A stretch of DNA of 64,000 bases from contig OZ022586.1 in the NCBI GenBank assembly GCA_963669155.1, positions 5,498,778 to 5,562,777 on the forward strand, given 5' to 3'. The position numbers and the translations under genes were made by a program. The notes below the pieces were generated by a model that was not told where the DNA came from, did no database searches, and saw only the letters and a list, made by a program, of their open reading frames with translations. How positions within the stretch are numbered: position 1 is the stretch's first letter; the number at the start of each line of letters is the position of its first letter. Positions 3,281 to 61,984 of the stretch are shown piece by piece. Source of the DNA: Arbacia lixula. Lineage: Eukaryota > Echinodermata > Echinoidea > Arbacioida > Arbaciidae.

Positions 3281-4725
3281 GCATTTTAAAATTTTGCGCG
3301 CGCGTTTTTGCACTAACGTACGCGTACGCGCGCGTTTTTATTTAATAATATAAATTGTATTATTATTAAATTTATGCATGTCAATTTTCATTACCTATAA
3401 ATGATTGGTTCTAGAGCTACATGAGGTAATAGGTTTTCATTAAACTGCTCGTAGATGACGTCACCATGACGTCATGACCTTGAAAATGTTGCTGGACCAT
3501 GTTCACATATATGTCCATACATGGTGAACATTTCATGAAACATGGTTCATGCATTGTTGAGATATCAATGCCACAAAAATTTGGAATAAAAATAAATAAA
3601 TAAAGAAAGAAAATTCGGACAAACACAAGAGGTGATCTGCCATGGCATGGCAGACCACCTAATAAAGAAAGAAAATTCGGACGAAAACAAGAGGTGATCT
3701 GCCATGGCATGGCAGACCACCTAACGAGACATACTTGTGGACAAGTATAAGGTGGTCTCTGCATTGGCAAATTTATGCACAGGCACGGGCTGGTAAATGC
3801 ACGTTCTTAAAACATCGCCTTACCCATTCAGCCACAAATCTTCCCATTCACTTTTCACGTAATGACCGCTAGCAGTGGCTAGAATGATTTAGAAATCGAT
3901 ATTCAAGCTGAAATTTTGCCATAATCCCGAGATCTAATGAAAAAATGGAGATCACGTGGCCGAAAGCTACTAGATTCAGCTACAACATACTAAAATTTCA
4001 GAGTTAAAGATCGGAACACAGGAGAAGATATAGCTCCTGAAATATTGCAATGTCATTTCATGATTTCAAATAAATGACCCTCCCATTGACATTACACGTG
4101 AAAACGTCTGATTCTGACATTAATGCCTATAATCATATTTTCACCTTAGAGACGTTAACAAATTGGAAAGTTAAGGCAAGCTTGCTATAGAGCAATGTCT
4201 TAGGCACAACATACTGAAATTTGGGAGAAAATTGACAAAGGATTACTGAGATATGCAAAAGCGGGTAAAAAAGTTCATGACGTCATAATTGAAAATTCAT
4301 TTTTCGATTCATATGGCAATATGATGACGTCACCATGTACTTACTGGTAAAATGACACATGAAATGACATCTACAATTCATACGCTTTCCAAATATGAAA
4401 AAAAAATTGGGGGTCATCGGCCATTCTGAGGAGCTATGGCCGATTGAGGGTAGTCATGTTTTTTGCAATATTTGCACACAAAAACGTATTGACGCACGCG
4501 CAGACTTTAAACTTTGACGCACCCGCACGACCTTGTTATTGCATGGAAATGGCTCAAAATGACAGGATGTGTTGTATGTAGTGTCAGTAACATGAATTTA
4601 GTACAAAAACGGAATTTTGATGTTCTATTCGCGTTACGCACGGAAAAACGCGCGAACGCGCGGAAATTTTTGAAATGCTGGAAATGACCTGAAACATATG
4701 CAAAACAATTTTGAGTTGATTAGGA
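3281..4725 (+). repeat. Array unit 3, B-type, 1445 bp
   Basis: Diverged unit with two hairpin cassettes (3601-3722). About 310 bp present in A units, between aatgcacg and tcttaaaac, is missing. Only the A-box half of the tRNA-like module remains, near 3805-3840. Confidence 0.9.
3601..3722 (+). repeat. Two hairpin cassettes (unit 3)
   Basis: Two direct copies of about 60 bp, each an A-rich leader (taaagaaagaaaattcgg) followed by a hairpin with stem TCTGCCATG/CATGGCAGA and outer arms AGGTGa/ACCT. They fill the slot between the aataaa-rich tract and the outer hairpin. Confidence 0.85.
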
Positions 4726-5898
4726 GCATTTTAAAATTTTGCGCGCACGTTTTTGCACTAACGTACGCGTACGCGCGCGTTTTAATTTATTAAAATTATT
4801 TGTATTATTATTAAATTTATGCATGTCATCTTTCATTAGCTATAAATGATTGGTTCTAGAGCTACATGAGGTAATAGATTTTCATTAAACTGCTCGTAGA
4901 TGACGTCACGATGACGTCATGACCTTGAAAATGTTGCTGGACCATGTTCACATACATACCTATACATGGTGAATATTTGATGAAACATGGCCCATGCATT
5001 GTTGAGATATCAATGCCACAAAAATTTGGAATAAAAATAAACGAGACATACTTGTGGACAAGTATAAGGTGGTCTGCATTGGCAAATTTGTGCACAGACA
5101 TGGTATGGTAAATGCACGGCGACACCATCGTCTTTCCATGGTGACACCATCTATTTATTAGAAATCAGAGGCAACGCTCAAGAAAACTCATAAAGCCACA
5201 AACAATATACTAACATTTCAGAGACTTGACAAAATGATGACACCTTCCATTGACATAACACGTACATGAGTCCGTTTATGACACTAATGCGAATAATGAA
5301 ATTTACACCATGAGGACATCAACAAAATGACAAATGAAGGAAATTCATGAATAGAAGAAGATCTCAGCTATAACATAGTGAAATTTTGGAGGAAATTGAC
5401 AAAGGATTACTGAGATATGCAAAAGCGGGTAAAAAAGTTCATGACGTCATAATTGAAAATTCATTTTTTCGATTTATATGGCAATATGATGACGTCACGA
5501 TGTACTTTCCGGTTAAATAACACATGAAATCACATTTACATTTCATATTCTTTCCAAACATTAAAAAAAATGGGGGTCACCGGCCATTTTAAAGAGCTAT
5601 GGCCGATTGAAGGTAGTCATGTTTTTTGCAATATTTGCACACAAAAACGTATTGACGCACGCGCGGACTTTCAACTTTGACGCACTCTCACGACCTTGTT
5701 TTTGCATGGAAATGGCTCAAAATTTCAGGATGTGATGGTAGTAGTATCAGAAACGTTAAAACAGTAAAAAAACAGAATTTTGATGGTGCGTACGCGCTAC
5801 GCACGAAAAAACGCGCAAACGCGCGCGCACGCGCGAAAATTTTTGAAATGCTTGAAATTGCCTGAAACATATGCAAAACAATTTTGAGTTGATTCTGA
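4726..5898 (+). repeat. Array unit 4, shortened B-type, 1173 bp
   Basis: The shortest unit. It has the conserved block (about 5570-5870) and the doubled TGACGTCA site (about 4899-4921), but no tRNA-like module and no hairpin cassette. The region 5110-5240 resembles the A-unit segment around the caagaaagctcat motif, so its deletion end points differ from those of the other B units. Confidence 0.88.
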
Positions 5899-7513
5899 GC
5901 ATTTTAAAATTTTGCGCGCGCGTTTTTGCACTAACGTACGCGTACGCGCGCGTTTTAATTTACTGAGATTAATTCGCTTATCATTAATTTCATGCATGTC
6001 AAATTTCATTACATATCAATGATTGGTTCTAGAGATATATCCAATAATCGATTTTCATTAAATTGCTCGTAGATGACGTCACGATGACGTCATGACTTAG
6101 AAAATGTTGCTGGAACATGTTCACGTACATACCCATGCATGATGAAGATTTCATGAAAAATGGCCTATGCATTGAAGAAATATCCATGCCACAAACATTA
6201 GGAATAAAAATAAACGAGACATACTTGTGGACAAGTATCAGGTGGTCTGCATTGGCAAATTCATGCACAGACATGGGCTGGAAAATGCACGGTGAACTAT
6301 AGACCTTCATTCGTGACACCAACTATCCATAAGCAATGTGAGACAGCGCTCAAGAAAGCTCATAGGGCACCTATTATACTAAAATTTCAGAGAATTTCCT
6401 AAATGGTAACATGTTTATGCTAACGTGATTAATAGTCATGTAAGAGAATGGGGTGAGAGAAAAAAGAATTGGAAAGAAAATCTCAAAGAGAATGACAAAG
6501 TGAGGCATAAAACAGAAGAAGATGGCAAAATAAACATTGCAAAAGGAATGCAAAAGTTGACCCTACCCACGCCAGGAATCGAACCGGGGGCCTCGAGATC
6601 TTAAAACGGCGCCTTACCTATTGAGCCACAAATCTTCCCATTCACTTAACACGTAATGCCCAGCAGGGGCTAGAATGATTAAGAAATCGATATTCAAGCT
6701 GAAATTTCACCATGATCCCGACATCTGATTAAAAAATGGAGACGACGTTCCGGAAAGCTCGTAGACTCAGCTACAACATACTGAAATTTCAGAGTGAAAG
6801 CTTGACATATTAGTGAGATACATCTCCTAGAAGCTCGTCATGTCATTTCATAAATACCACTTCCATTGACATAACACGGAAGTGCGATTTTGACATTCAT
6901 GCGTATAATGAAATTTACACCGTGAAGACGTCATCAAAATGAAAAATGAAGGCAACTTCTACTATGGAGCGAGGTCTCAGCTACAACATACTGAAATTTG
7001 GGAGAAAATTGACCATGAATTACTGAGATACACAAAAGCGGGTAAAAAAGTTCATGACGTCATACATGAAAAATCATTTTTTCGATTCATATGGCAATAT
7101 GATGACATCAACATAAATTTAAAAGGTAAATCAAACATTAAATCACATCTACATTTCCCACTCTTTCAGAATATTGAAAAAAAATTGGGGGTCACCGGCC
7201 ATTCTGAAGAGCTATGGCCGATTGAAGGTAGTCATGTTTTTTGCAATATTTGCACACAAAAACGTATTGACGCACGCGCAGACTTTGAACTTTGACGCAC
7301 CCGCACGACCTTGTTATTGCATGGAAATGGCTCAAAATGACAGGATGTGTTGTATGTAGTGTCAGTAACATGAATCCAGTAAAAAAACAGAATTTTGACG
7401 TTTTGTTCGCGTTACGCACAAAAAAACGCGTGAACGCGCGCGCACGCGCGGAAATTTTTGAAATGCTAGAAATGGCCTGAAACATATGCAAAACAATTTT
7501 GAGTTGATTCTGA
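5899..7513 (+). repeat. Array unit 5, A-type with B-like left end, 1615 bp
   Basis: The first 300 bp carry many substitutions relative to the A units, while the rest (from about 6220) is nearly identical to them. This is a mosaic, as expected from unequal exchange or gene conversion. Confidence 0.9.
6561..6634 (-). repeat. tRNA-like module (unit 5)
   Basis: Same sequence and spacing as in unit 1. Both pol III boxes are intact. Confidence 0.75.
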
Positions 7514-9137
7514 GCATTTTAAAATTTTGCGCGCGCGTTTTTGCACTAACGTACGCGTACGCGCGCGTTTTTTTTCAATGAAATAAATAAGCTACTCATT
7601 AATTATATGCATGTCAAATTTCATTACACAGAGATGACCAGTTCTAGAGCTACATGAGGTAATAGTTTTTCATTAAACTGCTCGTAGATGACGTCACGAT
7701 GACGTCATGACCTTGAAAATGTTGCTGTAACATGTTCACATATATGTCCATACATGATGAACATTTCATGAAATATGGCTTATGCATTGTTGAGATATCC
7801 ATGTCACAAAAATTTGGAATAAAAATAAATAAATAACGAGACATACTTGTGGACAAGTATCAGGTGGTCTGCATTGGCAAATTCATGCACAGACATGGGC
7901 TGGAAAATGCACGGTGAACTATAGACCTTCATTCGTGACACCAACTATCCATAAGCTATGTGAGACAGCGCTCAAGAAAGCTCATATAGGGCACCTATTA
8001 TACTAAAATTTCAGAGAATTTCCTAAATGGTAACATGTTTATGCTAACGTGATTAATAGTCATGTAAGAGAATGGGGTGAGAGAAAAAAGAATTGGAAAG
8101 AAAATCTCAAAGAGAATGACAAAGTGAGGCATAGAACAGAAGAAGATGGCAAAATAAACATTGCAAAAGGAATGCAAAAGTTGACCCTACCCACGCCAGG
8201 AATCGAACCGGGGGCCTCGAGATCTTAAAACGGCGCCTTACCTATTGAGCCACAAATCTTCCCATTCACTTAACACGTAATGCCCAGCAGGGGCTAGAAT
8301 GATTAAGAAATCGATATTCAAGCTGAAATTTCACCATGATCCCGACATCTGATTAAAAAATGGAGACAACGTTCCGGAAAGCTCGTAGACTCAGCTACAA
8401 CATACTGAAATTTCAGAGTGAAAGCTTGACATATTAGTGAGATACATCTCCTAGAAGCTCGTCATGTCATTTCATAAATACCACTTCCATTGACATAACA
8501 CGGAAGTGCGATTTTGACATTCATGCGTATAATGAAATTTACACCGTGAAGACGTCATCAAAATGAAAAATGAAGGCAACTGCTACTATGGAGCGAGGTC
8601 TCAGCTACAACATACTGAAATTTGGGAGAAAATTGACCATGAATTACTGAGATACACAAAAGCGGGTAAAAAAGTTCATGACGTCATACATGAAAAATCA
8701 TTTTTTCGATTCATATGGCAATATGATGACATCAACATAAATTTAAAAGGTAAATCGAACATTAAATCACATCTACATTTCCCACTCTTTCAGAATATTG
8801 AAAAAAAATTGGGGGTCACCGGCCATTCTGAAGAGCTATGGCCGATTGAAGGTAGTCATGTTTTTTGCAATATTTGCACACAAAAACGTATTGACGCACG
8901 CGCAGACTTTGAACTTTGACGCACCCGCACGACCTTGTTATTGCATGGAAATGGCTCAAAATGACAGGATGTGTTGTTTGTAGTGTCAGTAACATGAATC
9001 CAGTAAAAAAACAGAATTTTGACGTTTTGTTCGCGTTACGCACGAAAAAACGCGCGAACGCGCGCGCACGCGCGGAAATTTTTGAAATGCTAGAAATGGC
9101 CTGAAACATATGCAAAACAATTTTGAGTTGATTTGGA
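7514..9137 (+). repeat. Array unit 6, A-type, 1624 bp
   Basis: Standard A-type unit with no hairpin cassette. A 4-bp expansion (ctcatataggg) is present near 7981-7991. Confidence 0.92.
8185..8258 (-). repeat. tRNA-like module (unit 6)
   Basis: Same sequence as in unit 1. Both pol III boxes are intact. Confidence 0.75.
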
Positions 9138-10763
9138 GCATTTTAAAATTTTGCGCGCGCGTTTTTGCACTAACGTACGCGTACGCGCGCGTTTTTTTTC
9201 AATGAAATTATTAAGCTACTTATTAACTATATGCATGTTAAATTTCATTACACAGAGATGACCAGTTCTAGAGCTACATGAGGTAATAGGTTTTCATTAA
9301 ACTGCTCGTAGATGACGTCACGATGACGTCATGACCTTGAAAATGTTGCTGTAACATGTTCACGTATATGTCCATACATGATGAACATTTCATGAAATAT
9401 GGCTTATGCATTGTTGAGATATCCATGTCACAAAAATTTGGAATAAAAATAAATAAATAATAAACGAGACATACTTGTGGACAAGTATCAGGTGGTCTGC
9501 ATTGGCAAATTCATGCACAGACATGGGCTGGAAAATGCACGGTGAACTATAGACCTTCATTCGTGACACCATCTATCCATAAGCAATGTGAGACAGCGCT
9601 CAAGAAAGCTCATAGGGCACCTATTATACTAAAATTTCAGAGAATTTCCTAAATGGTAACATGTTTATGCTTACGTGATTAATAGTCATGTAAGAGAATG
9701 GGGCGAGAGAAAAAAGAATTGGAAAGAAAATCTCAAAGAGAATGACAAAGTGAGGGATAGAACAGAAGAAGATGGCAAAATAAACATTGCAAAAGGAATG
9801 CAAAAGTTGACCCTACCCACGCCAGGAATCGAACCGAGGGCCTCGAGATCTTAAAACGGCGCCTTACCTATTGAGCCACAAATCTTCCCATTCACTTAAC
9901 ACGTCATGCCCAGCAGGGGCTAGAATGATTAAGAAATCGATATTCAAGCTGAAATTTCACCATGATCCCGACATCTGATTAAAAAATGGAGACAACGTTC
10001 CGGAAAGCTCGTAGACTCAGCTACAACATACTGAAATTTCAGAGTGAAAGCTTGACATATTAGTGAGATACATCTCCTAGAAGCTCGTCATGTCATTTCA
10101 TAAATACCACTTCCATTGACATAACACGGAAGTGCGATTTTGACATTCATGCGTATAATGAAATTTACACCGTGAAGACGTCATCAAAATGAAAAATGAA
10201 GGCAACTCCTACTATGGAGCGAGGTCTCAGCTACAACATACTGAAATTTGGGAGAAAATTGACCATGAATTACTGAGATACACAAAAGCGGGTAAAAAAG
10301 TTCATGACGTCATACATGAAAAATCATTTTTTCGATTCATATGGCAATATGATGACATCAACATAAATTTAAAAGGTAAATCGAACATTAAATCACATCT
10401 ACATTTCCCACTCTTTCAGAATATTGAAAAAAAATTGGGGGTCACCGGCCATTCTGAAGAGCTATGGCCGATTGAAGGTAGTCATGTTTTTTGCAATATT
10501 TGCACACAAAAACGTATTGACGCACGCGCAGACTTTAAACTTTGACGCACCCGCACGACCTTGTTATTGCATGGAAATGGCTCAAAATGACAGGATGTGT
10601 TGTATGTAGTGTCAGTAACATGAATCCAGTAAAAAAACAGAATTTTGACGTTTTGTTCGCGTTACGCACGAAAAAACGCGCGAACGCGCGCGCACGCGCG
10701 GAAATTTTTGAAATGCTAGAAATGGCCTGAAACATATGCAAAACAATTTTGAGTTGATTTGGA
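9138..10763 (+). repeat. Array unit 7, A-type, 1626 bp
   Basis: Standard A-type unit with a few private changes, for example gaaccgaggg beside the B box and cgtcatgcc near 9903. Confidence 0.92.
9811..9884 (-). repeat. tRNA-like module (unit 7)
   Basis: One substitution next to the B box (ccgaggg in place of ccggggg on the plus strand). Both boxes are intact. Confidence 0.75.
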
Positions 10764-11089
10764 GCATTTTAAAATTTTGCGCGCGCGTTTTTGCACTAAC
10801 GTACGCGTACGCGCGCGTTTTTTTTCAATGAAATTAATTAGCTACTCATTAATTATATGCATGTCAAATTTCATTACACAGAGATGACCAGTTCTAGAGC
10901 TACATGAGGTAATAGTTTTTCATTAAACTGCTCGTAGATGACGTCACGATGACGTCATGACCTTGAAAATGTTGCTGTAACATGTTCACATATATGTCCA
11001 TACATGATGAACATTTCATGAAATATGGCCTATGCATTGTTGAGATATCCATGTCACAAAAATTTGGAATAAAAATAAATAAATAAATA

Positions 11090-11207
11090 ATAAAGAAAGA
11101 AAATTCTAACGAAATTAAGAGGTGATCTGTCGTTGGCGACAGACCACCTAATAAAGAAAGAAAATTCTAACGAAATTAAGAGGTGATCTGTCGGCGACAG
11201 ACCACCT
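11090..11207 (+). repeat. Two hairpin cassettes (unit 8)
   Basis: Copies 60 bp apart with stem TCTGTCG/CGACAGA. The loop is TTGG in the first and is collapsed to GG-type in the second. Confidence 0.85.
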
Positions 11208-11793
11208 AACTAGAATTAAATTATATATGACTCTAGTAATGATAAAAAAGAATCTAGCTTTATCTAGACAAAAGGCAGTAATAATTGCAGTCAATGTGCG
11301 AAGAAATTTATCAGCTTGATATCAGTTAATTTCCACCTACATGAACATTTTTAAAAGTCATAATTATAACAGCAGCGTTGTAGTCAAAACCCAATCTGAA
11401 AAACAGATTTGAGCGGTCTACCGTTTATTACGTCACATTTAAATATCAAATTAAATACGAGAGATACTTGTGTACAAGTATGAGGTGGTCTGTCTGGAAA
11501 TTCATGCTAAGTTCTGACTAATGCACGGTGAAACCATGCAGTCATTAAAAATCAGGGACAACGTCCGTTGAAGTAAGCTCATAGCGCACCTATATCATTA
11601 TCAACATTTTAGGGACTTGCGTAAATCGTGTTAATGGTTACATGTATGCTAACAACATGTAATTAATAGTCATGTAAGATAAACTTGCGAGAGAAAAAAA
11701 ATGGGAAATAAAATCTCAAAGAGAATGACAAAGTGAGGGACAGAACAGAAGAAGGCGGCAAAATAAACATTGCAAAAGGAATACAAAAGTTGA

Positions 11794-11867
11794 ACCTACC
11801 CACTCGAGGAATCGAACCGGGGGAGTCGTGATCTTAAAACGGCGCCTTACCCATTGAGCCACAATTC
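11794..11867 (-). repeat. Diverged tRNA-like module (first in unit 8)
   Basis: The B box GGTTCGATTCC is kept (11808-11818) and the A box reads TGGCTCAATGGG (11861-11850), but the surrounding bases differ from the other modules. Divergence around intact boxes could reflect age or another subfamily. Confidence 0.72.
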
Positions 11868-12214
11868 TTCCCGTTCACTTAACACGTAATGCCCGGCCAG
11901 CAGGGGCTGCAAATTCATGCACAGACATGGGCTGGAAAATGCACGGTGAACTATAGACCTTCATTCGTGACACCAACTATCCATAAGCAATGTGAGACAG
12001 CGCTCAAGAAAGCTCATAGGGCACCTATTATACTAAAATTTCAGAGAATTTCCTAAATGGTAACATGTTTATGCTAACGTGATTAATAGTCATGTAAGAG
12101 AATGGGGTGAGAGAAAAAAGAATTGGAAAGAAAATCTCAAAGAGAATGACAAAGTGAGGCATAGAACAGAAGAAGATGGCAAAATAAACATTGCAAAAGG
12201 AATGCAAAAGTTGA

Positions 12215-12288
12215 CCCTACCCACGCCAGGAATCGAACCGGGGGCCTCGAGATCTTAAAACGGCGCCTTACCTATTGAGCCACAAATC
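12215..12288 (-). repeat. tRNA-like module (second in unit 8)
   Basis: Standard A-unit copy located 421 bp after the diverged one. Both boxes are intact. Confidence 0.75.
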
Positions 12289-13168
12289 TTCCCATTCACT
12301 TAACACGTAATGCCCAGCAGGGGCTAGAATGATTAAGAAATCGATATTCAAGCTGAAATTTCACCATGATCCCGACATCTGATTAAAAAATGGAGACAAC
12401 GTTCCGGAAAGCTCGTAGACTCAGCTACAACATACTGAAATTTCAGAGTGAAAGCTTGACATATTAGTGAGATACATCTCCTAGAAGCTCGTCATGTCAT
12501 TTCATAAATACCACTTCCATTGACATAACACGGAAGTGCGATTTTGACATTCATGCGTATAATGAAATTTACACCGTGAAGACGTCATCAAAATGAAAAA
12601 TGAAGGCAACTCCTACTATGGAGCGAGGTCTCAGCTACAACATACTGAAATTTGGGTGAAAATTGACCATGAATTACTGAGATACACAAAAGCGGGTAAA
12701 AAAGTTCATGACGTCATACATGAAAAATCATTTTTTCGATTCATATGGCAATATGGTGACATCAACATAAATTTAAAAGGTAAATCGAACATTAAATCAC
12801 ATCTACATTTCCCACTCTTTCAGAATATTGAAAAAAAATTGGGGGTCACCGGCCATTCTGAAGAGCTATGGCCGATTGAGGGTAGTCATGTTTTTTGCAA
12901 TATTTGCACACAAAAACGTATTGACGCACGCGCAGACTTTGAACTTTGACGCACCCGCACGACCTTGTTATTGCATGGAAATGGCTCAAAATGACAGGAT
13001 GTGTTGTATGTAATGTCAGTAACATGAATCCAGTAAAAAAACAGAATTTTGACGTTTTGTTCGCGTTACGCACGATAAAACGCGCGAACGCGCGCGCACG
13101 CGCGGAAATTTTTTGAAATGCTAGAAATGGCCTGAAACATATGCAAAACAATTTTGAGTTGATTTGGA

Positions 13169-14784
13169 GCATTTTAAAATTTTGCGCGCGCGTTTTTGCA
13201 CTAACGTACGCGTACGCGCGCGTTTTTTTTTAATGAAATTAATTAACTACTCATTAATTATATGCATGTCAAATTTCATTACACAGAGATGACCAGTTCT
13301 AGAGCTACATGAGGTAATAGTTTTTCATTAAACTGCTCGTAGATGACATCACGATGACGTCATGACCTTGAAAATGTTGCTGTAACATGTTCACATATAT
13401 GTCCATACATGATGAACATTTCATGAAATATGGCCTATGCATTGTTGAGATATCCATGTCACAAAAATTTGGAATAAAAATAAACGAGACATACTTGTGG
13501 ACAAGTATCAGGTGGTCTGCATTGGCAAATTCATGCACAGACATGGGCTGGAAAATGCACGGTGAACTATAGACCTTCATTCGTGACACCAACTATCCAT
13601 AAGCAATGTGAGACAGCGCTCAAGAAAGCTCATAGGGCACCTATTATACTAAAATTTCAGAGAATTTCCTAAATGGTAACATGTTTATGCTAACGTGATT
13701 AATAGTCATGTAAGAGAATGGGGTGAGAGAAAAAAGAATTGGAAAGAAAATCTCAAAGAGAATGACAAAGTGAGGCATAGAACAGAAGAAGATGGCAAAA
13801 TAAACATTGCAAAAGGAATGCAAAAGTTGACCCTACCCACGCCAGGAATCGAACCGGGGGCCTCGAGATCTTAAAACGGCGCCTTACCTATTGAGCCACA
13901 AATCTTCCCATTCACTTAACACGTAATGCCCAGCAGGGGCTAGAATGATTAAGAAATCGATATTCAAGCTGAAATTTCACCATGATCCCGACATCTGATT
14001 AAAAAATGGAGACAACGTTCCGGAAAGCTCGTAGACTCAGCTACAACATACTGAAATTTCAGAGTGAAAGCTTGACATATTAGTGAGATACATCTCCTAG
14101 AAGCTCGTCATGTCATTTCATAAATACCACTTCCATTGACATAACACGGAAGTGCGATTTTTTACATTCATGCGTATAATGAAATTTACACCGTGAAGAC
14201 GTCATCAAAATGAAAAATGAAGGCAACTTCTACTATGGAGCGAGGTCTCAGCTACAACATACTGAAATTTGGGAGAAAATTGACCATGAATTACTGAGAT
14301 ACACAAAAGCGGGTAAAAAAGTTCATGACGTCATACATGAAAAATCATTTTTTCGATTCATATGGCAATATGATAACATCAACATAAATTTAAAAGGTAA
14401 ATCGAACATTAAATCACATCTACATTTCCCACTCTTTCAGAATATTGAAAAAAAATTGGGGGTCACCGGCCATTCTGAAGAGCTATGGCCGATTGAAGGT
14501 AGTCATGTTTTTTGCAATATTTGCACACAAAAACGTATTGACGCACGCGCAGACTTTGAACTTTGACGCACCCGCACGACCTTGTTATTGCATGGAAATG
14601 GCTCAAAATGACAGGATGTGTTGTATGTAGTGTCAGTAACATGAATCCAGTAAAAAAACAGAATTTTGACGTTTTGTTCGCGTTACGCACGAAAAAACGC
14701 GCGAACGCGCGAGCACGCGCGGAAATTTTTGAAATGCTAGAAATGGCCTGAAACATATGCAAAACAATTTTGAGTTGATTTGGA
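13169..14784 (+). repeat. Array unit 9, A-type, 1616 bp
   Basis: Standard A-type unit with an empty hairpin slot. One of its paired TGACGTCA sites is mutated to tgacatca near 13347. Confidence 0.92.
13831..13904 (-). repeat. tRNA-like module (unit 9)
   Basis: Same sequence as in unit 1. Both pol III boxes are intact. Confidence 0.75.
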
Positions 14785-16406
14785 GCATTTTAAAATTTTG
14801 CGCGCGCGTTTTTGCACTAACGTACGCGTACGCGCTCGTTTTTTTTCAATTAAATTAATTAGCTACTCATTAATTATATGTATGTCAAATTTCATTACAC
14901 AGAGATGACCAGTTCTAGAGCTACATGAGGTAATAGTTTTTCATTAAACTGCTCGTAGATGACGTCACGATGACGTCATGACCTTGAAAATGTTGCTGTA
15001 ACATGTTCACATATATGTCCATACATGATGAACATTTCATGAAATATGGTTTATGCATTGTTGAGATATCCATGTCACAAAAATTTGGAATAAAAATAAA
15101 TAAATAACGAGACATACTTGTGGACAAGTATCAGGTGGTCTGCATTGGCAAATTCATGCACAGACATGGGCTGGAAAATGCACGGTGAACTATAGACCTT
15201 CATTCGTGACACCAACTATCCATAAGCAATGTGAGACAGCGCTCAAGAAAGCTCATAGGGCACCTATTATACTAAAATTTCAGAGAATTTCCTAAATGGT
15301 AACATGTTTATGCTAACGTGATTAATAGTCATGTAAGAGAATGGGGTGAGAGAAAAAAGAATTGGAAAGAAAATCTCAAAGAGAATGACAAAGTGAGGCA
15401 TAGAACAGAAGAAGATGGCAAAATAAACATTGCAAAAGGAATGCAAAAGTTGACCCTACCCACGCCAGGAATCGAACCGGGGGCCTCGAGATCTTAAAAC
15501 GGCGCCTTACCTATTGAGCCACAAATCTTCCCATTCACTTAACACGTAATGCCCAGCAGGGGCTAGAATGATTAAGAAATCGATATTCAAGCTGAAATTT
15601 CACCATGATCCCGACATCTGATTAAAAAATGGAGACAACGTTCCGGAAAGGTCGTAGACTCAGCTACAACATACTGAAATTTCAGAGTGAAAGCTTGACA
15701 CATTAGTGAGATACATCTCCTAGAAGCTCGTCATGTCATTTCATAAATACCACTTCCATTGACATAACACGGAAGTGCGATTTTGACATTCATGCGTATA
15801 ATGAAATTTACACCGTGAAGACGTCATCAAAATGAAAAATGAAGGCAACTCCTACTATGGAGCGAGGTCTCAGCTACAACATACTGAAATTTGGGAGAAA
15901 ATTGACCATGAATTACTGAGATACACAAAAGCGGGTAAAAAAGTTCATGACGTCATACATGAAAAATCATTTTTTCGATTTATATGGCAATATGATGACA
16001 TCAACATAAATTTAAAAGGTAAATCGAACATTAAATCACATCTACATTTCCCACTCTTTCAGAATATTGAAAAAAAATTGGGGGTCACCGGCCATTCTGA
16101 AGAGCTATGGCCGATTGAAGGTAGTCATGTTTTTTGCAATATTTGCACACAAAAACGTATTGACGCACGCGCAGACTTTGAACTTTGACGCACCCGCACG
16201 ACCTTGTTATTGCATGGAAATGGCTCAAAATGACAGGATGTGTTGTATGTAGTGTCAGTAACATGAATCCAGTAAAAAAACAGAATTTTGACGTTTTGTT
16301 CGCGTTACGCACGAAAAAACGCGCGAACGCGCGCGCACGCGCGGAAATTTTTGAAATGCTAGAAATGGCCTGAAACATATGCAAAACAATTTTGAGTTGA
16401 TTTAGA
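14785..16406 (+). repeat. Array unit 10, A-type, 1622 bp
   Basis: Standard A-type unit with no hairpin cassette. It has single-base differences from its neighbours only. Confidence 0.92.
15454..15527 (-). repeat. tRNA-like module (unit 10)
   Basis: Same sequence as in unit 1. Both pol III boxes are intact. Confidence 0.75.
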
Positions 16407-16733
16407 GCATTTTAAAATTTCGCGCGCGCGTTTTTGCACTAACGTACGCGCACGCGCGCGTTTTTTTTCAATGAAATTAATTAGCTACTCATTAATTATA
16501 TGCATGTCAAATTTCATTACACAGAGATGACCAGTTCTAGAGCTACATGAGGTAATAGTTTTTCATTAAACTGCTAGTAGATGACGTCACGATGACGTCA
16601 TGACCTTGAAAATGTTGCTGTAACATGTTCACATATATGTCTATACATGATGAACATTTCATGAAATATGGCCTATGCATTGTTGAGATATCCATGTCAC
16701 AAAAATTTGGAATAAAAATAAATAAATAATAAA

Positions 16734-16860
16734 TAAAGAAAGAAAATTCTAACGAAATTAAGAGGTGATCTGTCGTTGGCGACAGACCACCTAATAATAA
16801 TAAAGAAAGAAAAATCGGACAAACACAAGAGGTGATCTGCCATGGCATGGCAGACCACCT
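16734..16860 (+). repeat. Two hairpin cassettes of different type (unit 11)
   Basis: The first has stem TCTGTCG/CGACAGA and the second TCTGCCATG/CATGGCAGA. The two stem types therefore occur side by side in one slot. Confidence 0.85.
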
Positions 16861-17212
16861 AATAAACGAGACATACTTGTGGACAAGTATCAGGTGGTCT
16901 GCATTGGCAAATTCATGCACAGACATGGGCTGGAAAATGCACGGTGAACTATAGACCTTCATTCGTGACACCAACTATCCATAAGCAATGTGAGACAGCG
17001 CTCAAGAAAGCTCATAGGGCACCTATTATACTAAAATTTCAGAGAATTTCCTAAATGGTAACATGTTTATGCTAACGTGATTAATAGTCATGTAAGAGAA
17101 TGGGGTGAGAGAAAAAAGAATTGGAAAGAAAATCTCAAAGAGAATGACAAAGTGAGGCATAGAACAGAAGAAGATGGCAAAATAAACATTGCAAAAGGAA
17201 TGCAAAAGTTGA

Positions 17213-17286
17213 CCCTACCCACGCCAGGAATCGAACCGGGGGCCTCGAGATCTTAAAACGGCGCCTTACCTATTGAGCCACAAATC
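17213..17286 (-). repeat. tRNA-like module (unit 11)
   Basis: Same sequence as in unit 1. Both pol III boxes are intact. Confidence 0.75.
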
Positions 17287-18165
17287 TTCCCATTCACTTA
17301 ACACGTAATGCCCAGCAGGGGCTAGAATGATTAAGAAATCGATATTCGAGCTGAAATTTCACCATGATCCCGACATCTGATTAAAAAATGGAGACAACGC
17401 TCCGGAAAGCTCGTAGACTCAGCTACAACATACTGAAATTTCAGAGTGAAAGCTTGACATATTAGTGAGATACATCTCCTAGAAGCTCGTCATGTCATTT
17501 CATAAATACCACTTCCATTGACATAACACGGAAGTGCGATTTTGACATTCATGCGTATAATGAAATTTACACCGTGAAGACGTCATCAAAATGAAAAATG
17601 AAGGCAACTCCTACTATGGAGCGAGGTCTCAGCTACAACATACTGAAATTTGGGAGAAAATTGACCATGAATTACTGAGATACACAAAAGCGGGTAAAAA
17701 AGTTCATGACGTCATACATGAAAAATCATTTTTTCGATTCATATGGCAATATGATGACATCAACATAAATTTAAAAGGTAAATCGAACATTAAATCACAT
17801 CTACATTTCCCACTCTTTCAGAATATTGAAAAAAAATTGGGGGTCACCGGCCATTCTGAAGAGCTATGGCCGATTGAAGGTAGTCATGTTTTTTGCAATA
17901 TTTGCACACAAAAACGTATTGACGCACGCGCAGACTTTGAACTTTGACGCACCCGCACGACCTTGTTATTGTATGGAAATGGCTCAAAATGACAGGATGT
18001 GTTGTATGTAGTGTCAGTAACATGAATTTAGTAAAAAAACAGAATTTTGACGTTTTGTTCGCGTTACGCACGAAAAAACGCGCGAACGCGCGCGCACGCG
18101 CGGAAATTTTTGAAATGCTAGAAATGGCCTGAAACATATGCAAAACAATTTTGAGTTGATTTGGA

Positions 18166-19427
18166 GCATTTTAAAATTTTGCGCGTGCTTTTTTGCACTA
18201 ACGTACGCGTACGCGCGCGTTTTTATTCAATGAAATTAATTAGCTACTCATTAATTATATGCATGTCAAATTTCATTACACAGAGATGACCAGTTCTAGA
18301 GCTACATGAGGTAATAGTTTTTCATTAAACTGCTCGTAGATAACGTCACGATGACGTCATGACCTTGAAAATGTTGCTGTAACATGTTCACATATATGTC
18401 CATACATGATGAACATTTCATGAAATATGGCTTATGCATTGTTGAGATATCCATGTCACAAAAATTTGGAATAAAAAGACCACCTAACGAGACATACTTG
18501 TGGACAAGTATAAGGTGGTCTGCATTGGCAAATTCATGCACTGGCATGGGCTGGTAAATGAACGTTCTTAAACATCGCCTTACCCATTGAGCCACAAATC
18601 TTCGCATTCACTTTTCACGTAATGCCCGCTAGCAGTGGCTAGAATGATTTAGAAATCGATATTCAAGCTGAAATTTTGCCATAATCCCGATATCTAATGA
18701 AAAAATGGAGGCCACGTGGCCGAAAGCTAGTGGATTCAGCTACAACATTTAACATTTTCAGAGTGAAAGATCGTAACATAGGAAAAGATATAGCTCCTGA
18801 AAGATTGCCATGTCATTTCATGATTTCAAATAAATGACCCTCCCATTGACATTACACGTTAAAACATGTGATTCAATCTTTAATGCCTATAATCATATTT
18901 TCACCTTGAAGACATTAACAAATTGAAAAGTTAGGGCAAGCCTGCCTCAGAGCAATGTCCTAGGCACAACATACTGAAATTTGGAAGAAAATTGACAAAG
19001 GAAAACTGAGATATGCAAAAGCGGGTAAAAAAGTTCATGACGTCATAATTGAAAATTCATTTTTTCGATTCATATGGCAATATGATGACGTCACCATGTA
19101 CTTACTGGTAAAATGACACATGAAATGACATCTACATTTTATACTCTTTCCAAATATTAAAAAAGAATTGGGGGTCACCGGCCATTCTGAGGAGCTATGG
19201 CCGATTGAAGGTAGTCATGTTTTTTGCAATATTTGCACACAAAAACGTATTGACGCACGCGCAGACTTTGAACTTTGACGCACCCGCACGACCTTGTTAT
19301 TGCATGGAAATAGCTCAAAATGACAAAAATGACGGAAAAACGCGCGAACGCGCGCGCACGCGCAAAAATTTTTGAAATGCTGAAAATGGCCTGAAACATA
19401 TGCAAAACAATTTTGATTTGATTTAGA
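18166..19427 (+). repeat. Array unit 12, B-type with A-like start, 1262 bp
   Basis: Begins like an A unit and switches to B-type sequence after the outer hairpin. Only the last 8 bases of a hairpin cassette (gaccacct, about 18478) survive. A deletion near 19325 removes about 75 bp of the conserved block that unit 14 retains. Confidence 0.9.
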
Positions 19428-19749
19428 GCATTTTAAAATTTTGCGCGCGCGTTTTTGCACTAACGTACGCGTACGAGCGCGTTTTTATTCATTTAAATTA
19501 ATTGTATTATTATTAAATTTATGAATGTCAATTTTCATTAGCTATAAATGATTGGTTCTAGAGCTACATGAGGTTATAGGTTTTCATTAAACTGCTCGTA
19601 GATGACGTCATGATGACGTCATGACCTTGAAAAAAATACAATGACAAGTTCACATGTATACCTATACATGGTCAAAATATGGTGTATCATGACATACGCA
19701 TTGTTGAGATATAGATGACACAAAAACATGGGGTGCAAAAAATAAAAAT

Positions 19750-19952
19750 AAAGAAAGAAAATTCGGGCGAAATTAAAAGGTGATCTGTCGGTGCACGACA
19801 GACCACCTAATAAATAATAAATAATGAAAGAAAATTCTAACGAAATTAAGAGGTGATCTGTCGTTGGCGACAGACCACCTAATAAATAATAAATAAAGAA
19901 AGAAAATTCTAACGAAATTAAGAGGTGATCTGTCGTTGGCGACAGACCACCT
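19750..19952 (+). repeat. Three hairpin cassettes (unit 13)
   Basis: Cassettes lie at 19750-19808 (loop GTGCA), 19823-19880 and 19894-19952 (loop TTGG), separated by ataaataataaataa spacers. Confidence 0.85.
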
Positions 19953-20303
19953 AATAACGAGACATACTTGTGGACAAGTATCAGGTGGTCTGCATTGGCA
20001 AATTCATGCACAGACATGGGCTGGAAAATGCACGGTGAACTATAGACCTTCATTCGTGACACCAACTATCCATAAGCAATGTGAGACAGCGCTCAAGAAA
20101 GCTCATAGGGCACCTATTATACTAAAATTTCAGAGAATTTCCTAAATGGTAACATGTTTATGCTAACGTGATTAATAGTCATGTAAGAGAATGGGGTGAG
20201 AGAAAAAAGAATTGGAAAGAAAATCTCAAAGAGAATGACAAAGTGAGGCATAGAACAGAAGAAGATGGCAAAATAAACATTGCAAAAGGAATGCAAAAGT
20301 TGA

Positions 20304-20377
20304 CCCTACCCACGCCAGGAATCGAACCGGGGGCCTCGAGATCTTAAAACGGCGCCTTACCTATTGAGCCACAAATC
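20304..20377 (-). repeat. tRNA-like module (unit 13)
   Basis: Same sequence as in unit 1. It lies 3091 bp after the unit 11 copy. Confidence 0.75.
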
Positions 20378-21256
20378 TTCCCATTCACTTAACACGTAAT
20401 GCCCAGCAGGGGCTAGAATGATTAAGAAATCGATATTCGAGCTGAAATTTCACCATGATCCCGACATCTGATTAAAAAATGGAGACAACGCTCCGGAAAG
20501 CTCGTAGACTCAGCTACAACATACTGAAATTTCAGAGTGAAAGCTTGACATATTAGTGAGATACATCTCCTAGAAGCTCGTCATGTCATTTCATAAATAC
20601 CACTTCCATTGACATAACACGGAAGTGCGATTTTGACATTCATGCGTATAATGAAATTTACACCGTGAAGACGTCATCAAAATGAAAAATGAAGGCAACT
20701 CCTACTATGGAGCGAGGTCTCAGCTACAACATACTGAAATTTGGGAGAAAATTGACCATGAATTACTGAGATACACAAAAGCGGGTAAAAAAGTTCATGA
20801 CGTCATACATGAAAAATCATTTTTTCGATTCATATGGCAATATGATGACATCAACATAAATTTAAAAGGTAAATCGAACATTAAATCACATCTACATTTC
20901 CCACTCTTTCAGAATATTGAAAAAAAATTGGGGGTCACCGGCCATTCTGAAGAGCTATGGCCGATTGAAGGTAGTCATGTTTTTTGCAATATTTGCACAC
21001 AAAAACGTATTGACGCACGCGCAGACTTTGAACTTTGACGCACCCGCACGACCTTGTTATTGCATGGAAATGGCTCAAAATGACAGGATGTGTTGTATGT
21101 AGTGTCAGTAACATGAATTTAGTAAAAAAACAGAATTTTGACGTTTTGTTCGCGTTACGCACGAAAAAACGCGCGAACGCGCGCGCACGCGCGGAAATTT
21201 TTGAAATGCTAGAAATGGCCTGAAACATATGCAAAACAATTTTGAGTTGATTTGGA

Positions 21257-22647
21257 GCATTTTAAAATTTTGCGCGTGCTTTTTTGCACTAACGTACGCG
21301 TACGCGCGCGTTTTTATTCAATGAAATTAATTAGCTACTCATTAATTATATGCATGTCAAATTTCATTACACAGAGATGACCAGTTCTAGAGCTACATGA
21401 GGTAATAGTTTTTCATTAAACTGCTCGTAGATAACGTCACGATGACGTCATGACCTTGAAAATGTTGCTGTAACATGTTCACATATATGTCCATACATGA
21501 TGAACATTTCATGAAATATGGCTTATGCATTGTTGAGATATCCATGTCACAAAAATTTGGAATAAAAATAAATAAATAAAGAAAGAAAATTCTAACGAAA
21601 TTAAGAGGTGATCTGTCGTTGGCGACAGACCACCTAACGAGACATACTTGTGGACAAGTATAAGGTGGTCTGCATTGGCAAATTCATGCACTGGCATGGG
21701 CTGGTAAATGAACGTTCTTAAACATCGCCTTACCCATTGAGCCACAAATCTTCGCATTCACTTTTCACGTAATGCCCGCTAGCAGTGGCTAGAATGATTT
21801 AGAAATCGATATTCAAGCTGAAATTTTGCCATAATCCCGATATCTAATGAAAAAATGGAGGCCACGTGGCCGAAAGCTAGTGGATTCAGCTACAACATTT
21901 AACATTTTCAGAGTGAAAGATCGTAACATAGGAAAAGATATAGCTCCTGAAAGATTGCCATGTCATTTCATGATTTCAAATAAATGACCCTCCCATTGAC
22001 ATTACACGTTAAAACATGTGATTCAATCTTTAATGCCTATAATCATATTTTCACCTTGAAGACATTAACAAATTGAAAAGTTAGGGCAAGCCTGCCTCAG
22101 AGCAATGTCCTAGGCACAACATACTGAAATTTGGAAGAAAATTGACAAAGGAAAACTGAGATATGCAAAAGCGGGTAAAAAAGTTCATGACGTCATAATT
22201 GAAAATTCATTTTTTCGATTCATATGGCAATATGATGACGTCACCATGTACTTACTGGTAAAATGACACATGAAATGACATCTACATTTTATACTCTTTC
22301 CAAATATTAAAAAAGAATTGGGGGTCACCGGCCATTCTGAGGAGCTATGGCCGATTGAAGGTAGTCATGTTTTTTGCAATATTTGCACACAAAAACGTAT
22401 TGACGCACGCGCAGACTTTGAACTTTGACGCACCCGCACGACCTTGTTATTGCATGGAAATAGCTCAAAATGACAGGATGTGTTGTATGTAGTGTCAGTA
22501 ACATGAATATAGTAAAAAAAACGGAATTTTGACGTTTTGTTCGCGTTACGCACGGAAAAACGCGCGAACGCGCGCGCACGCGCGGAAATTTTTGAAATGC
22601 TGGAAATGGCCTGAAACATATGCAAAACAATTTTGAGTTGATTTTGA
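21257..22647 (+). repeat. Array unit 14, copy of unit 12, 1391 bp
   Basis: Near identical to unit 12, but it keeps a full hairpin cassette (21577-21635) and the intact conserved block near 22470-22560. Confidence 0.9.
21577..21635 (+). repeat. Single hairpin cassette (unit 14)
   Basis: One cassette with stem TCTGTCG/CGACAGA. The matching place in the duplicate unit 12 keeps only gaccacct. Confidence 0.85.
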
Positions 22648-23978
22648 GCATTTTAAAATTTTGCGCGCGCGTTTTTGCATTAACGTACGCGTACGCGCGC
22701 GTATTTATTTATTGAAATTAATTGTTTTATTATTAAATCTATGCATGTCAATTTTCATTACCTATAAATGATTGGTTCTAGAGCTACATGAGGTAATAGG
22801 TTTTCATGAAACTGCTCGTAGATGACGTCACGATGACGTCATAACCTTGAAAATGTTGCTGGACCATGTTCACATATATACCTATACATGGTGAACATTT
22901 CATGAAACATGGTCCATGCATTGTCGACATATCAATGCCACAAAAATTTGGAATAAAAATAAATAAATAAACGAGACATACTTGTGGACAAGTATAAGGT
23001 GGTCTGCATTGGTAAATTCATGCACTGGCATGGGCTGGTAAATACACGTTATTTTAACATCGCCTTACCCATTGAGCCACAAATCTTCGCATTCACTTTT
23101 TACGTAACGCCCGCTAGCAGTGGCTAGAATGATTTAGAAATCGATATTCAAGCTGAAATTTTGCCATGCCGATATCTAATGAAAAAATGGAGACCACATG
23201 GCCGAAAGCTACTAGATTCAGCTACAACATACTAAAATTTCAGAGTAAAAGATCGTAACTTAGGAAAAGATATAGCTCCTGAAAGATTGCCATGTCATTT
23301 CATGATTTCAAATAAATGACCCTCCCATTGACATTACACGTGAAAACGTCTGATTCTGACATTAATGCCTATCATCATATTTTCACCTTGAAGACGTTAA
23401 CAACTTGAAAAGTTAAGGCTAGCTTGCCATAGAACAATGTCTTAGGCACAACATACTGAAATTTGGGAGAAAATTGAGAAAGTATTGCTGAGATATGCAA
23501 AAGCGGGTAAAAAAGTTCATGACGTCATAATTGAAAATTCATTTTTTCGATTCATATGGCAATATGATGACGTCACAATGTACTTACCGGTAAAATGACA
23601 CATAAAATCACATCTAAATTTTATACTCTTTCCAAATATTTAAAAAAAAATAGGGGTCACCGGCCATTCTGAAGAGCTATGGCCGATTGAAGGTAGTCAT
23701 GTTTTTTGCAATATTTGCACACAAAAACGTATTGACGCACGCGCAGACTTTGAACTTTGACGCACCCGCACGACCTTGTTATTGTATGGAAATGGCTCAA
23801 AATGACAGGATGTGTTGTATGTAGTGTCAGTAACATGTATCTGGTAAAAAAACGGAATTTTGACGTTTTGTTCGCGTTACGCACGGAAAAACGCGCGAAC
23901 GCGCGCGCACGCGCGGAAACTTTTGAAATGCTAGAAATGGCCTGAAACATATGCAAAACAATTTTGAGTTGATTTGAA
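22648..23978 (+). repeat. Array unit 15, B-type, 1331 bp
   Basis: B-type unit with no hairpin cassette. The remnant of the tRNA-like module keeps the A-box side only (about 23055-23090). Confidence 0.9.
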
Positions 23979-25431
23979 GCATTTTAAAATTTTGCGCGTG
24001 CTTTTTTGCACTAACGTACGCGTACGCGCGCGTTTTTATTTATTGAAATTTATTGTATTATCATTAAATTTATGCATGTCAATTTTCATGAGCTATAAAT
24101 AATTGGTTCTAGAGCTACATGAGGTAATAGGTTTTTATTAAACTGCTCGTAGATGACGTCACAATGACGTCATGACCTTGAAAATGTTGCTGTGACAAGT
24201 TCACATGTACATGTATACTTGATGAACATTTCATAAAACATGGTCCATGCATTATTGAGATATACCTCCCACAAAAAAGTGGGGTGCATTAAATAAAAAT
24301 AAATATGAAAGAAAATTCTAACGAAATTAAAAGGTGATCTGCCATGGCATGGCAGACCACCTAATAAAGAAAGAAAATTCGGACAAACACAAGAGGTGAT
24401 CTGCCATGGCATGGCAGACCACCTAATAAATAAACGAGACATACTTGTGGACAAGTATAAGGTGGTCTGCATTGGCAAATTCATGCACTGGCATGGGCTG
24501 GTAAATGCACGTTCTTAAAACATCGCCTTACCCATTGAGCCACAAATCTTCGCATTCACTTTTCACGTAATGCCCGCCAGCAGTGGCTAGAATGATTAAG
24601 AAATCGATATTCAAGCTAATTTCACCATGATCCCGACATCTGATAAAAAAGTGGAGCCGACGACTCCGAAAGCTAGTAGACTGAGCTACAACATACTGAA
24701 ATTTCAGAGCAACAGATTCAAAAATCAGCGAGATACAGCCCCTAGGAGGTCGTCATGTCATTTCATAAATACCCCTTCCATTGACATAACACGTACATGC
24801 GTCCGATTATGACACCAATGCGTAAAATGTAATTTACACCATGAAGACGTTATCAAAATGACAAATAAACGACAATTTTTTATAGAAGAAGGTCTCAGCT
24901 ACAACAGAGTGAAATTTGGGAGAAAATTGACCAAGGATTACTGAGATATGCAAAAGCGGGTAAAACAGTTCATGACGTCATAATTGAAAATTCATCTTTT
25001 CGATTTATATGGCGATATGATTACGTCACCATGTACTTACCAGTAAACTGACACATGAAATCACATCTACATTTCATATTCTTTCCAAATTTAAAAAGAA
25101 AATTGGGGGTCACCGGCCATTCTGAAGAGCTATGGCCGATTGAAGACAGTCATGTTTTTGGCAATATTTGCACACAAAAACGTATTGACGCACGCGCAGA
25201 CTTTCAACTTTGACGCACCCGCACGACCTTGTTATTGCATGGAAATGGCTCAAAATGACAGGATGTGTTGTATGTAGTGTCAGTAACATGAATCTAGTAA
25301 AAAAACGGAATTTTGACGTTTTGTTCGCGTTACGCACGGAAAAACGCGCGAACGCGCGCGCACGCGCGGAAATTTTTGAAATGCTAGAAATGGCCTGAAA
25401 CATATGCATAACAATTTTGAGTTGATTTGGA
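23979..25431 (+). repeat. Array unit 16, B-type with two hairpin cassettes, 1453 bp
   Basis: B-type unit with cassettes at 24304-24362 and 24363-24424. Parts after 24590 are closer to A units (catgatcccgacatctga), so this unit is also mosaic. Confidence 0.9.
24304..24424 (+). repeat. Two hairpin cassettes (unit 16)
   Basis: Both have the TCTGCCATG/CATGGCAGA stem, but their leaders differ (ttctaacgaaatt and ttcggacaaacac). Confidence 0.85.
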
Positions 25432-25933
25432 GCATTTTAAAATTTTGCGCGCGCGTTTTTGCACTAACGTACGCGTACGCGCGCGTTTTTATTTATTATA
25501 ATTGATTGTAATATTATTACATTTATGCATATTAATTTTCATTAGATATAAATGATTGGTTCATGAGCTACATGAGGTAATAGGTTTTCATTAAACTGCT
25601 CGTAGATGACGTCACGATGACGTCATGACCTTGAAAATGTTATTTTTTAAAGTTCACATGTAAACCTATACATGGTAAAAATATCATAAGATATGACAAG
25701 TGCATTGTTGAGATATCCATGCCACAAAAAAGTGGGGGGCAAAAAATAAAAATAAGATAGAAGATTCTGACGAAATTAGAAGGTGATCTGTCGGTGCACG
25801 ACAGACCACCTAATAAAAAAGAAAATTCTAACGAAATTAAAAGGTGATCTGTCGGTGCACGACAGACCACCTAATAAAGAAAGAAAATTCTAACGAAATT
25901 AAGAGGTGATCTGTCGTTGGCGACAGACCACCT
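25432..25933 (+). repeat. Array unit 17, truncated terminal unit
   Basis: Contains the CpG block, the doubled TGACGTCA site and three hairpin cassettes, then stops at the end of the third cassette. The sequence to the right (aaaaaggcggggcatgg) is unrelated. Confidence 0.9.
25754..25933 (+). repeat. Three hairpin cassettes at the array end (unit 17)
   Basis: Two with loop GTGCA and one with loop TTGG. The satellite array ends exactly at the third cassette. Confidence 0.85.
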
Positions 25934-34085: not shown

Positions 34086-34170
34086 GCTTCCATAGGAAGA
34101 GCCAGACGTGCAGCAACCAAGAATCTAACCATAATGTTATGAATTTGATTTCGGTCATGAGTTTTATCAC

Positions 34171-35660: not shown

Positions 35661-36011
35661 AATACCCTTGAGAGACGTGGGAGGTGATTTGCTTATAGTA
35701 CCGATTACTTGCCTTACCCTATAGCAATAATAATGATCGTGATTGTTATTAAACAACGTAACCAACATGTTCGAAAAAGCAATACATGTACTTTGCTGTC
35801 GAATTTTTAACCGTAACTAGCTAAAAATAAATTTGTGTTGAGCTCTGACCATGCAGTGCGTAGTAGAAAGAGCTACAGTTTCAAATGGTTCCGGGTCACT
35901 CGTTCATTGATTAACCAAACTCAACCCACACAATCATAAAGCAATGCATGCAATGCATCTACGCCGCGCCACCGCGCCGATCTCCTTAGATATTGGTGCC
36001 TCACACGATTC

Positions 36012-61880: not shown

Positions 61881-61884
61881 TTTT

Positions 61885-61980: not shown

Positions 61981-61984
61981 AATG

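Follow-up and report, generated by a model that had tools for sequence, protein, structure and literature searches.

A hairpin-bearing tandem array in Arbacia lixula and its likely origin as a non-autonomous Helitron2/Helentron-type element

The DNA analyzed here, referred to as the window, is a 64,000-nucleotide stretch of the Arbacia lixula genome (assembly GCA_963669155.1, contig OZ022586.1, forward-strand positions 5,498,778 to 5,562,777). Positions 1 to 25936 are occupied by a head-to-tail array of 17 bodies, U00 to U16, all on the minus strand; U00 is cut at the window edge, the array runs past base 1, and its 5' edge lies in a run of five T's (25934 to 25938). Seven of the 17 tandem units carry hairpins, 15 in total, distributed in order of position as 2, 2, 2, 3, 1, 2, and 3 and spanning 3630 to 25933. 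An earlier, sequence-only reading of the same DNA had described seven units with one to three hairpin cassettes of no known element type; our count agrees with that distribution, and all 15 hairpins lie within the interval it gave (3601 to 25933).

Read on the minus strand, a complete unit consists of T(T), a 5' inverted repeat, AGGTGGTCTG, contained in a 5' hairpin, a T-rich microsatellite, a non-coding body, a 3' inverted repeat, CAGACCACCT, a palindrome, GTCTCG, and T. The 5' part of U13 reads T-AGGTGGTCTG-TCGCCAACGA-CAGATCACCT, followed by a linker, a TTTATT microsatellite, and the body; its 3' part reads CAGACCACCT, one base, ATACTTGT-CC-ACAAGTAT, GTCTCG, and T. The cassette thus forms the 5' end of an element ∼1.2 to 1.7 kb long and is not a mobile unit by itself; the suggestion of a hairpin-based mobile element was correct. 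T(T)-AGGTGGTCTG is present at each of the 15 full hairpins, with the repeat 1 to 2 nt from the 5' end. Sixteen 3' ends were found, all on one strand, with the 3' repeat 25 to 26 nt inside the end, directly ahead of the palindrome; the repeat is exact at 15 of them, and the U03 copy (3724 to 3759) contains a 2-nt insertion. All 16 have the palindrome, the presence of which was part of the search pattern. The 24 nt formed by the palindrome and GTCTCG are invariant in 15 of the 16 copies found in this way, compared with identities of 79 to 100% for whole units, a range taken from an alignment disturbed by the chimeric unit U08. The base after the 3' end is T in all 16 cases, and TT follows in 15. 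At the U01 3' module (327 to 362) the order is CAGACCACCT, the palindrome ATACTTGTCCACAAGTAT, GTCTCG, and T; the module of the diverged U08 tail (11457 to 11492) has a variant palindrome, ATACTTGTACACAAGTAT, and CTCTCG.

On the plus strand, the hairpin arms are AGGTGATCTG and CAGACCACCT, and the ten outer bases of each arm are the same in all 15 copies, as the constant outer arms described earlier had implied. The A-C mismatch reported within them is indeed constant, but it is a G·T wobble on the minus strand, which is the element's 5'-to-3' strand, and not a mismatch. There are two stem types and four distinct hairpin sequences, which bears out the claim of at least two inner stems with several loops. 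Named by their minus-strand letters, these are a CCAA-loop form (six copies), a CCATGG-stem form (five), a TGCAC-loop form (three), and a short-loop form (one). Both stem types pair fully, wobble included, and on single-stranded DNA folding all four sequences far outperformed their own shuffles (z, −4.9 to −6.7; 0 of 200 shuffles did as well). The 5' hairpin holds the constant wobble, whereas pairing between the 5' and 3' inverted repeats is perfect, over 10 bp with the CCAA and TGCAC hairpins and over 11 bp with the CCATGG hairpins. No exact match to the hairpin arms was found on either strand of positions 25946 to 64000. Rfam gave no match across the window at the gathering score, and none in 300 to 2000 up to an E value of 1. 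Exact searches of viral contigs with a 20-mer and a 36-mer of the element gave no match, in a collection that may omit records from the window's own genome.

Foreign DNA starts right at the element ends, both at the array edge and on the two sides of a 247-bp spacer (11210 to 11456), which occurs once in the window, between the diverged U08 3' tail and the next 5' end, and is foreign sequence against both termini. The array edge falls inside the five-T run, where the 5'-most hairpin (25904 to 25933) is preceded on the minus strand by CCCCGCC-TTTTT; the spacer has TT on its 5' side and a lone T before A on its 3' side. The T-rich tract of U13, which together with the linker occupies 21559 to 21605, contains the most T-rich 20-nt windows of that unit's sense strand (16 of 20, compared with an antisense maximum of 12). 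The element has no long open reading frame with a known domain. It contains a partial internal repeat of ∼60 bp (82% identity), and no central tandem array has been reported in it.

Helitron2 elements are described, in the passages on element ends in the literature, as having two hairpins, asymmetric terminal inverted repeats of 8 to 15 bp, and T as the first base; the 5' repeat lies 0 to 2 bp from the end and pairs with the next bases into the 5' hairpin, and the 3' repeat lies 20 to 30 bp from the end, upstream of the hairpin (PMC3627910). The features of Helitron2 and HINE that can be tested in the window, among them a 5' repeat 0 to 4 nt from the 5' end and a 3' repeat 20 to 60 nt from the other terminus, were found, with one reservation: the repeat length of 10 to 11 bp is within the 8 to 15 bp of Helitron2 but at or just under the 11 to 15 bp of HINE. 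The statement that no known element type fits does not hold: the hairpin and its position, the partner repeat, the second palindrome, and the T-rich target all correspond to published Helitron2/Helentron termini. Judged from its sequence, the array is very probably built from copies of a rolling-circle transposon, non-autonomous and of the Helitron2/Helentron type (HINE, DINE-1-like). Such an element would be moved by a transposase through a rolling-circle step. In the published model, as we would apply it here, rolling-circle copying would be halted by the 3' palindrome, and the two inverted repeats, by pairing with each other, would open the 5' hairpin and set the end point; the contrast between the wobble in the 5' hairpin and the perfect end-to-end pairing would suit such a switch.

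Two other assignments were rejected. A terminal inverted repeat transposon, foldback element, or miniature inverted-repeat transposable element does not fit a 3' repeat that lies 25 to 26 nt inside the end and not at the very end. The AATAAA tract is not the tail of a short interspersed nuclear element or other retroelement; the tract corresponds to the T-rich block at the 5' end, and the tRNA-like boxes in the element are on the opposite strand. These boxes, resembling the A and B boxes of tRNA genes and separated by 43 nt as judged by eye, occur on the element sense strand at 685 to 745 and at the same place in other L units (one of the body groups described below); L bodies have them, and the B-box side is missing in S bodies. 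The consensus sequences are TRGYNNANNGG and GGTTCGANTCC. No tRNA was detected by ARAGORN (bacterial code) or by Rfam (300 to 2000, up to an E value of 1).

Given this anatomy, variation in hairpin number becomes a question of how one unit joins the next. Seven hairpins adjoin a body: those of U16 (25781 to 25811, TGCAC loop), U15 (24332 to 24362, CCATGG stem, with a TTTTAATTTCG-type linker), U13 (21606 to 21635, CCAA loop), U12 (19778 to 19808, TGCAC loop), U10 (16763 to 16792, CCAA loop), U07 (11120 to 11149, CCAA loop), and U02 (3630 to 3660, CCATGG stem), all on the minus strand. The other eight are orphans: two ahead of U16 (the 5'-most hairpin, with a CCAA loop, which is an orphan if nested, and 25842 to 25872, TGCAC loop), one ahead of U15 (24394 to 24424, CCATGG stem), two ahead of U12 (19923 to 19952 and 19851 to 19880, both CCAA loop), and one each ahead of U10 (16830 to 16860, CCATGG stem), U07 (11181 to 11207, short loop), and U02 (3692 to 3722, CCATGG stem).

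After the 16 3' ends, three junctions lead directly to a 5' end, and three lead to one via a short TTATT-like linker. Eight enter a headless body at its T-rich tract: the 3' modules of U01, U04 (5041 to 5076), U05 (6214 to 6249), U06 (7836 to 7871), U07 (9464 to 9499), U09 (13484 to 13519), U10 (15107 to 15142), and U15 (22971 to 23006) are followed by headless U00, U03, U04, U05, U06, U08, U09, and U14, respectively. One, that of U02 (1981 to 2016), leads into the 5' linker of U01, which starts in its own linker, and one leads into the spacer. The remaining modules are those of U11 (16866 to 16901), U12 (18487 to 18522), U13 (19957 to 19992), U14 (21637 to 21672), and U16 (24434 to 24469). 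The exact 3'-5' junction GTCTCG-TT-AGGTGG occurs three times in the array; the U03 and U14 3' ends form exact junctions with the hairpins at 3692 to 3722 and 21606 to 21635. The extra pairing noticed earlier in units 3, 12, and 14 reflects one element's 3' end abutting the next 5' end, unit 12 keeping only GACCACCT. The slot for the hairpins had been placed always beside the acgagacatac hairpin, and this is so in five of the seven units; the group at 25781 to 25933 ends the array, and that at 11120 to 11207 is followed by the ∼247-bp spacer.

Ten bodies lack a full hairpin. Eight begin within the T-rich tract, immediately after an intact 3' end, and two keep remnants: U11 retains TAGGTGGTC alone (18478 to 18486), with a 59-nt deletion relative to U13, and U01 retains only the linker of its 5' module (1966 to 1980), a remnant absent from the sequence-only reading. 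If breakpoints were spread evenly over only the first 100 nt, the chance that all eight would fall in the 25-nt tract is ∼1.5 × 10^−5, or ∼1 × 10^−4 (calculated by hand) when U01 is counted as a ninth that falls outside. Such clustering marks the tract as special.

These junctions suggest that new copies would insert into the T-rich tract just behind the 5' hairpin of a resident copy, with each self-insertion stranding an orphan 5' hairpin on its upstream side and a headless body on its downstream side; the linker and tract of U13 are the proposed self-target. A preference for the T strand would place all copies in the same orientation, since an element that carries the tract and is specific for its T strand would strike itself there, always in the same direction. 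We lean slightly towards self-insertion as the main source of hairpin-number variation. Our judgment is evenly balanced on the broader proposal that a self-carried T-rich target behind the start hairpin leads to repeated landings at the same place and in the same direction, such that transposition alone would build a satellite in which orphans and headless bodies record the order of insertion. Taken as a full explanation of the locus, element identity with self-insertion as the main cause of the variation is one that we regard as probable.

Several observations weigh against this explanation. Strict nesting was not significant in either of two tests: a balanced order arose in 11% of count shuffles (P = 0.11), and four of eight non-adjacent pairs agreed in type, compared with a random mean of 3.2 (P = 0.43). 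In the latter test, hairpin and body types were set by hand after the data had been seen, and both remnants were counted as own hairpins. The 17 = 17 balance needs both remnants; without them the walk first becomes negative at U03 and ends at −2. A rebuilt T-rich tract equals an intact allele in one of eight nested pairs and in 6 of all 64 pairings, so that rebuilt microsatellite tracts do not discriminate and were rejected as proof of pairing. The U01 linker remnant has no matching truncated orphan, and nesting does not explain the spacer and the diverged U08 tail. As to the element itself, its inverted repeats are at the short end of the HINE lengths or just below them, although within the Helitron2 range, and apart from short matches, most of them A/T-rich, no copy was found outside the array in 25946 to 64000. 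Neither a Rep nor a Helitron helicase domain was found in the 10 of the 38 window open reading frames (at least 110 amino acids) that were scanned with Pfam, which gave domains of long interspersed nuclear elements (LINEs), zinc fingers, DUF1647, and blanks.

The bodies were grouped by hand according to their 5' third into L (10 bodies), S (U02, U03, and U14), and diverged (U12, U15, and U16, 84 to 85% identical to one another), with U04 standing alone. The 5' thirds are 75 to 89% identical between groups and 84 to 100% within them, and bodies of different groups are intermingled along the array. In all seven units with a body-adjoining full hairpin, the 5' module matches the body group: L bodies have CCAA hairpins (three units), the S body has a CCATGG hairpin (one unit), and diverged bodies have TTTTAATTTCG- or TTCTAATTTCG-type linkers (three units, two with TGCAC and one with CCATGG hairpins). 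This agreement is partly circular, because the U15 labels were chosen so: its body is 86 to 87% identical to S bodies and 84 to 85% to U12 and U16 and was grouped with the latter by its 5' start, and its module was typed by the linker. If the stem is used to type the U15 module and the body label is kept, the agreement is six of seven. Hairpin type largely tracks body subfamily, and U15 shows that a stem can apparently be exchanged apart from its linker. Template switching, which had been offered as a source of the hairpins, is not needed for the array, but might account for U15, with its stem type on an other-type linker.

Among L-body sites, which omit U00 and include only the L part of U08, singletons number 76 (35 in U02) and shared sites 24, and U02 or the U11/U13 pair is involved in most of the shared ones. 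With U02 left out and U11 and U13 merged, at least 40 private changes and 5 to 6 shared ones remain, a nearly star-like pattern. This is expected of separate arrivals, although a well-mixed satellite could look alike. U08 is chimeric, with a diverged 3' tail, 77% identical to an L unit, placed on an L body without its own last 41 nt; tail and joint span 11457 to 11908 (minus strand).

Duplication or unequal exchange within the array has also left its mark. Over 1,794 aligned columns, U11 and its flank show one mismatch to U13, together with one gap of 59 nt, in which the hairpin was lost, and U12 and U14 have 839 bp identical. Duplication or unequal exchange (U11-U12 versus U13-U14) and the 59-nt deletion in U11 add to the variation in hairpin number. 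It is possible, though we think it doubtful, that recombination of this sort explains most of that variation. The element would be the same, and the T-rich tract behind one hairpin would engage in unequal exchange or single-strand annealing with the TTATT that precedes the next element's 5' end, giving one chromatid double hairpins and the other headless bodies. The near-identities just described represent exchange or duplication in the array, the CCATGG hairpin of U15 on an other-type linker is likely a recombinant, and the nesting tests fell short of significance, all of which would suit recombination. A TTATT-like linker does precede the hairpin behind a 3' end, but at only 3 of the 16 junctions, and recombination requires it. 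Furthermore, the eight orphans equal the eight tract-starting headless bodies on one molecule, an equality for which inter-chromatid exchange has no need, and the L bodies are nearly star-like except for U11/U13.

An improbable alternative is that the array was copied as a multimer from a circular intermediate by rolling-circle replication and inserted at once, the extra hairpins being extra initiation sites. Helitrons in tandem arrays and as joined-end circles have been described, plant arrays with many 5' ends and single 3' ends are related in a review, and the three exact GTCTCG-TT-AGGTGG junctions would be in keeping with such a concatemer. Uniform units would be expected, however, and the divergence and interspersion of the 5' thirds speak against this origin for the whole array, as does the fact that 8 of the 16 junctions lead straight into a headless body.

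Still less probable is an ordinary satellite without transposition, its hairpins kept by selection or made by template switching. In a covariation count resting on four distinct rows, 2 of 13 pairs vary, each changed on its two sides, and an equally high score is reached by 40 of 500 shuffles. The claim that both arms change together is accurate for the two varying pairs, and what lies behind it is two stem types: the compensatory change represents two founder stems, largely tracking subfamily, with weak statistics. Nothing beyond the two founders was detected, which, on that half, is the outcome that the sequence-only reading had itself named as telling against its proposal. Selection on the fold is not supported by the covariation; it is plausible from the biology of the family, and is not a result of these data. 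The long head-to-tail array and the full pairing of both stem types would be compatible with an ordinary satellite, but both unit ends have paired repeats specific to a known transposon group, the borders are sharp, and the covariation is accounted for by founders.

A canonical Helitron (Helitron1) on the plus strand, with a CTAA end and a 3' hairpin, can be dismissed, because although the plus-strand array end ACCACCTAA fits CTRR with a hairpin ahead of it, the 5' TC is absent, the hairpin extends right up to the end, the flanking bases are A-A instead of A|T, and the other end has a second hairpin and inverted repeat foreign to Helitron1, the ends being T(T)AGG and GTCTCG-T.

Elsewhere in the window, the plus strand at 61880 to 62983 has a second, unrelated HINE-like 5' end, TTTTT-GTCTCGCC, with the complement GGCGAGAC 13 nt further on; behind these come a CGTC/GTCC microsatellite and a run of about five tandem repeats of 157 bp, an arrangement also seen in DINE-1 and Cg_HINE. 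Because GGCGAGAC does not occur a third time in the window, the 3' end of this element was not located. Two LINE-type retrotransposon copies lie at 30279 to 34206 (minus strand) and 49904 to 53049 (plus strand), with endonuclease and reverse transcriptase domains in the scanned open reading frames. An inverted pair of small arrays occupies 36011 to 36223, where short tandem units of AGGACAATTACCCCC give way to an inverted counterpart, GGGTAGTTGTCC. A 133-bp unit containing a G run occurs five times in tandem at 43892 to 44558, and an open frame at 63053 to 63907 gave weak C2H2 zinc-finger matches under the Pfam cutoff.

With the array very probably of the Helitron2/Helentron kind, an apparently unclassifiable hairpin satellite can be assigned to a known transposon group. 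The locus holds both orphan 5' hairpins and headless bodies in one array, which makes it possible to test whether multiple 5' ends arise by self-insertion, as has been proposed, and it is equally suited to testing the step from transposon to satellite array. If the element does target itself by its own T-rich tract, a head-to-tail satellite would arise by transposition alone, and the order of insertion could be read from it.

We class the element as a new family within a known group. The literature search was directed at element type and mechanisms and not at this sequence; the comparisons that follow are with passages of the cited papers. It matches the Helitron2 group in its two hairpins, the lengths and positions of its repeats, and the 5' T, and differs in being known without a RepHel protein or autonomous partner and only in a long array (PMC3627910). 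Compensatory changes are reported between Helitron-1N1_CQu and Helitron-1N2_CQu (PMC3627910).

DINE-1/HINE elements are described with a microsatellite behind the 5' repeat, no open reading frame, and a TT or T-rich target (PMC2374699, PMC4067079, PMC7492417), and with a 3' stem-loop whose stem differs among species, a difference read as compensatory (PMC2374699, PMC4067079). The array element resembles them in its subterminal inverted repeats (subTIRs), the partial inverted repeat after the 5' one, the microsatellite of the 5' block, T-rich insertion, and the lack of an open reading frame; unlike them, it has repeats of 10 to 11 bp rather than 12 to 15 bp, a TTTATT rather than a GTCY microsatellite, no reported central tandem array, and a variable number of 5' hairpins (PMC2374699, PMC4067079). 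Cg_HINE from the Pacific oyster is similar in having a 5' subTIR of 11 to 12 bp, a complementary inverted repeat after 1 to 12 bp, a microsatellite, and a 3' subTIR followed by a palindrome, but its satellite-like repeats are inside the element, whereas here whole elements make up the array (PMC7492417).

The Fusarium oxysporum Helitron2 element FoHeli has several short 5' termini and one 3' terminus, attributed to self-insertion, and the array element likewise has several short 5' termini preceding one 3' terminus (PMC5148889). FoHeli differs in being fungal and in having autonomous copies, and the passages on it describe no array with both orphan 5' ends and headless bodies (PMC5148889). Two aspects of the array are thus already known from related systems: multiple 5' ends arising by self-insertion, in Fusarium, and hairpin change that preserves pairing, in the Helitron2/DINE-1 group.

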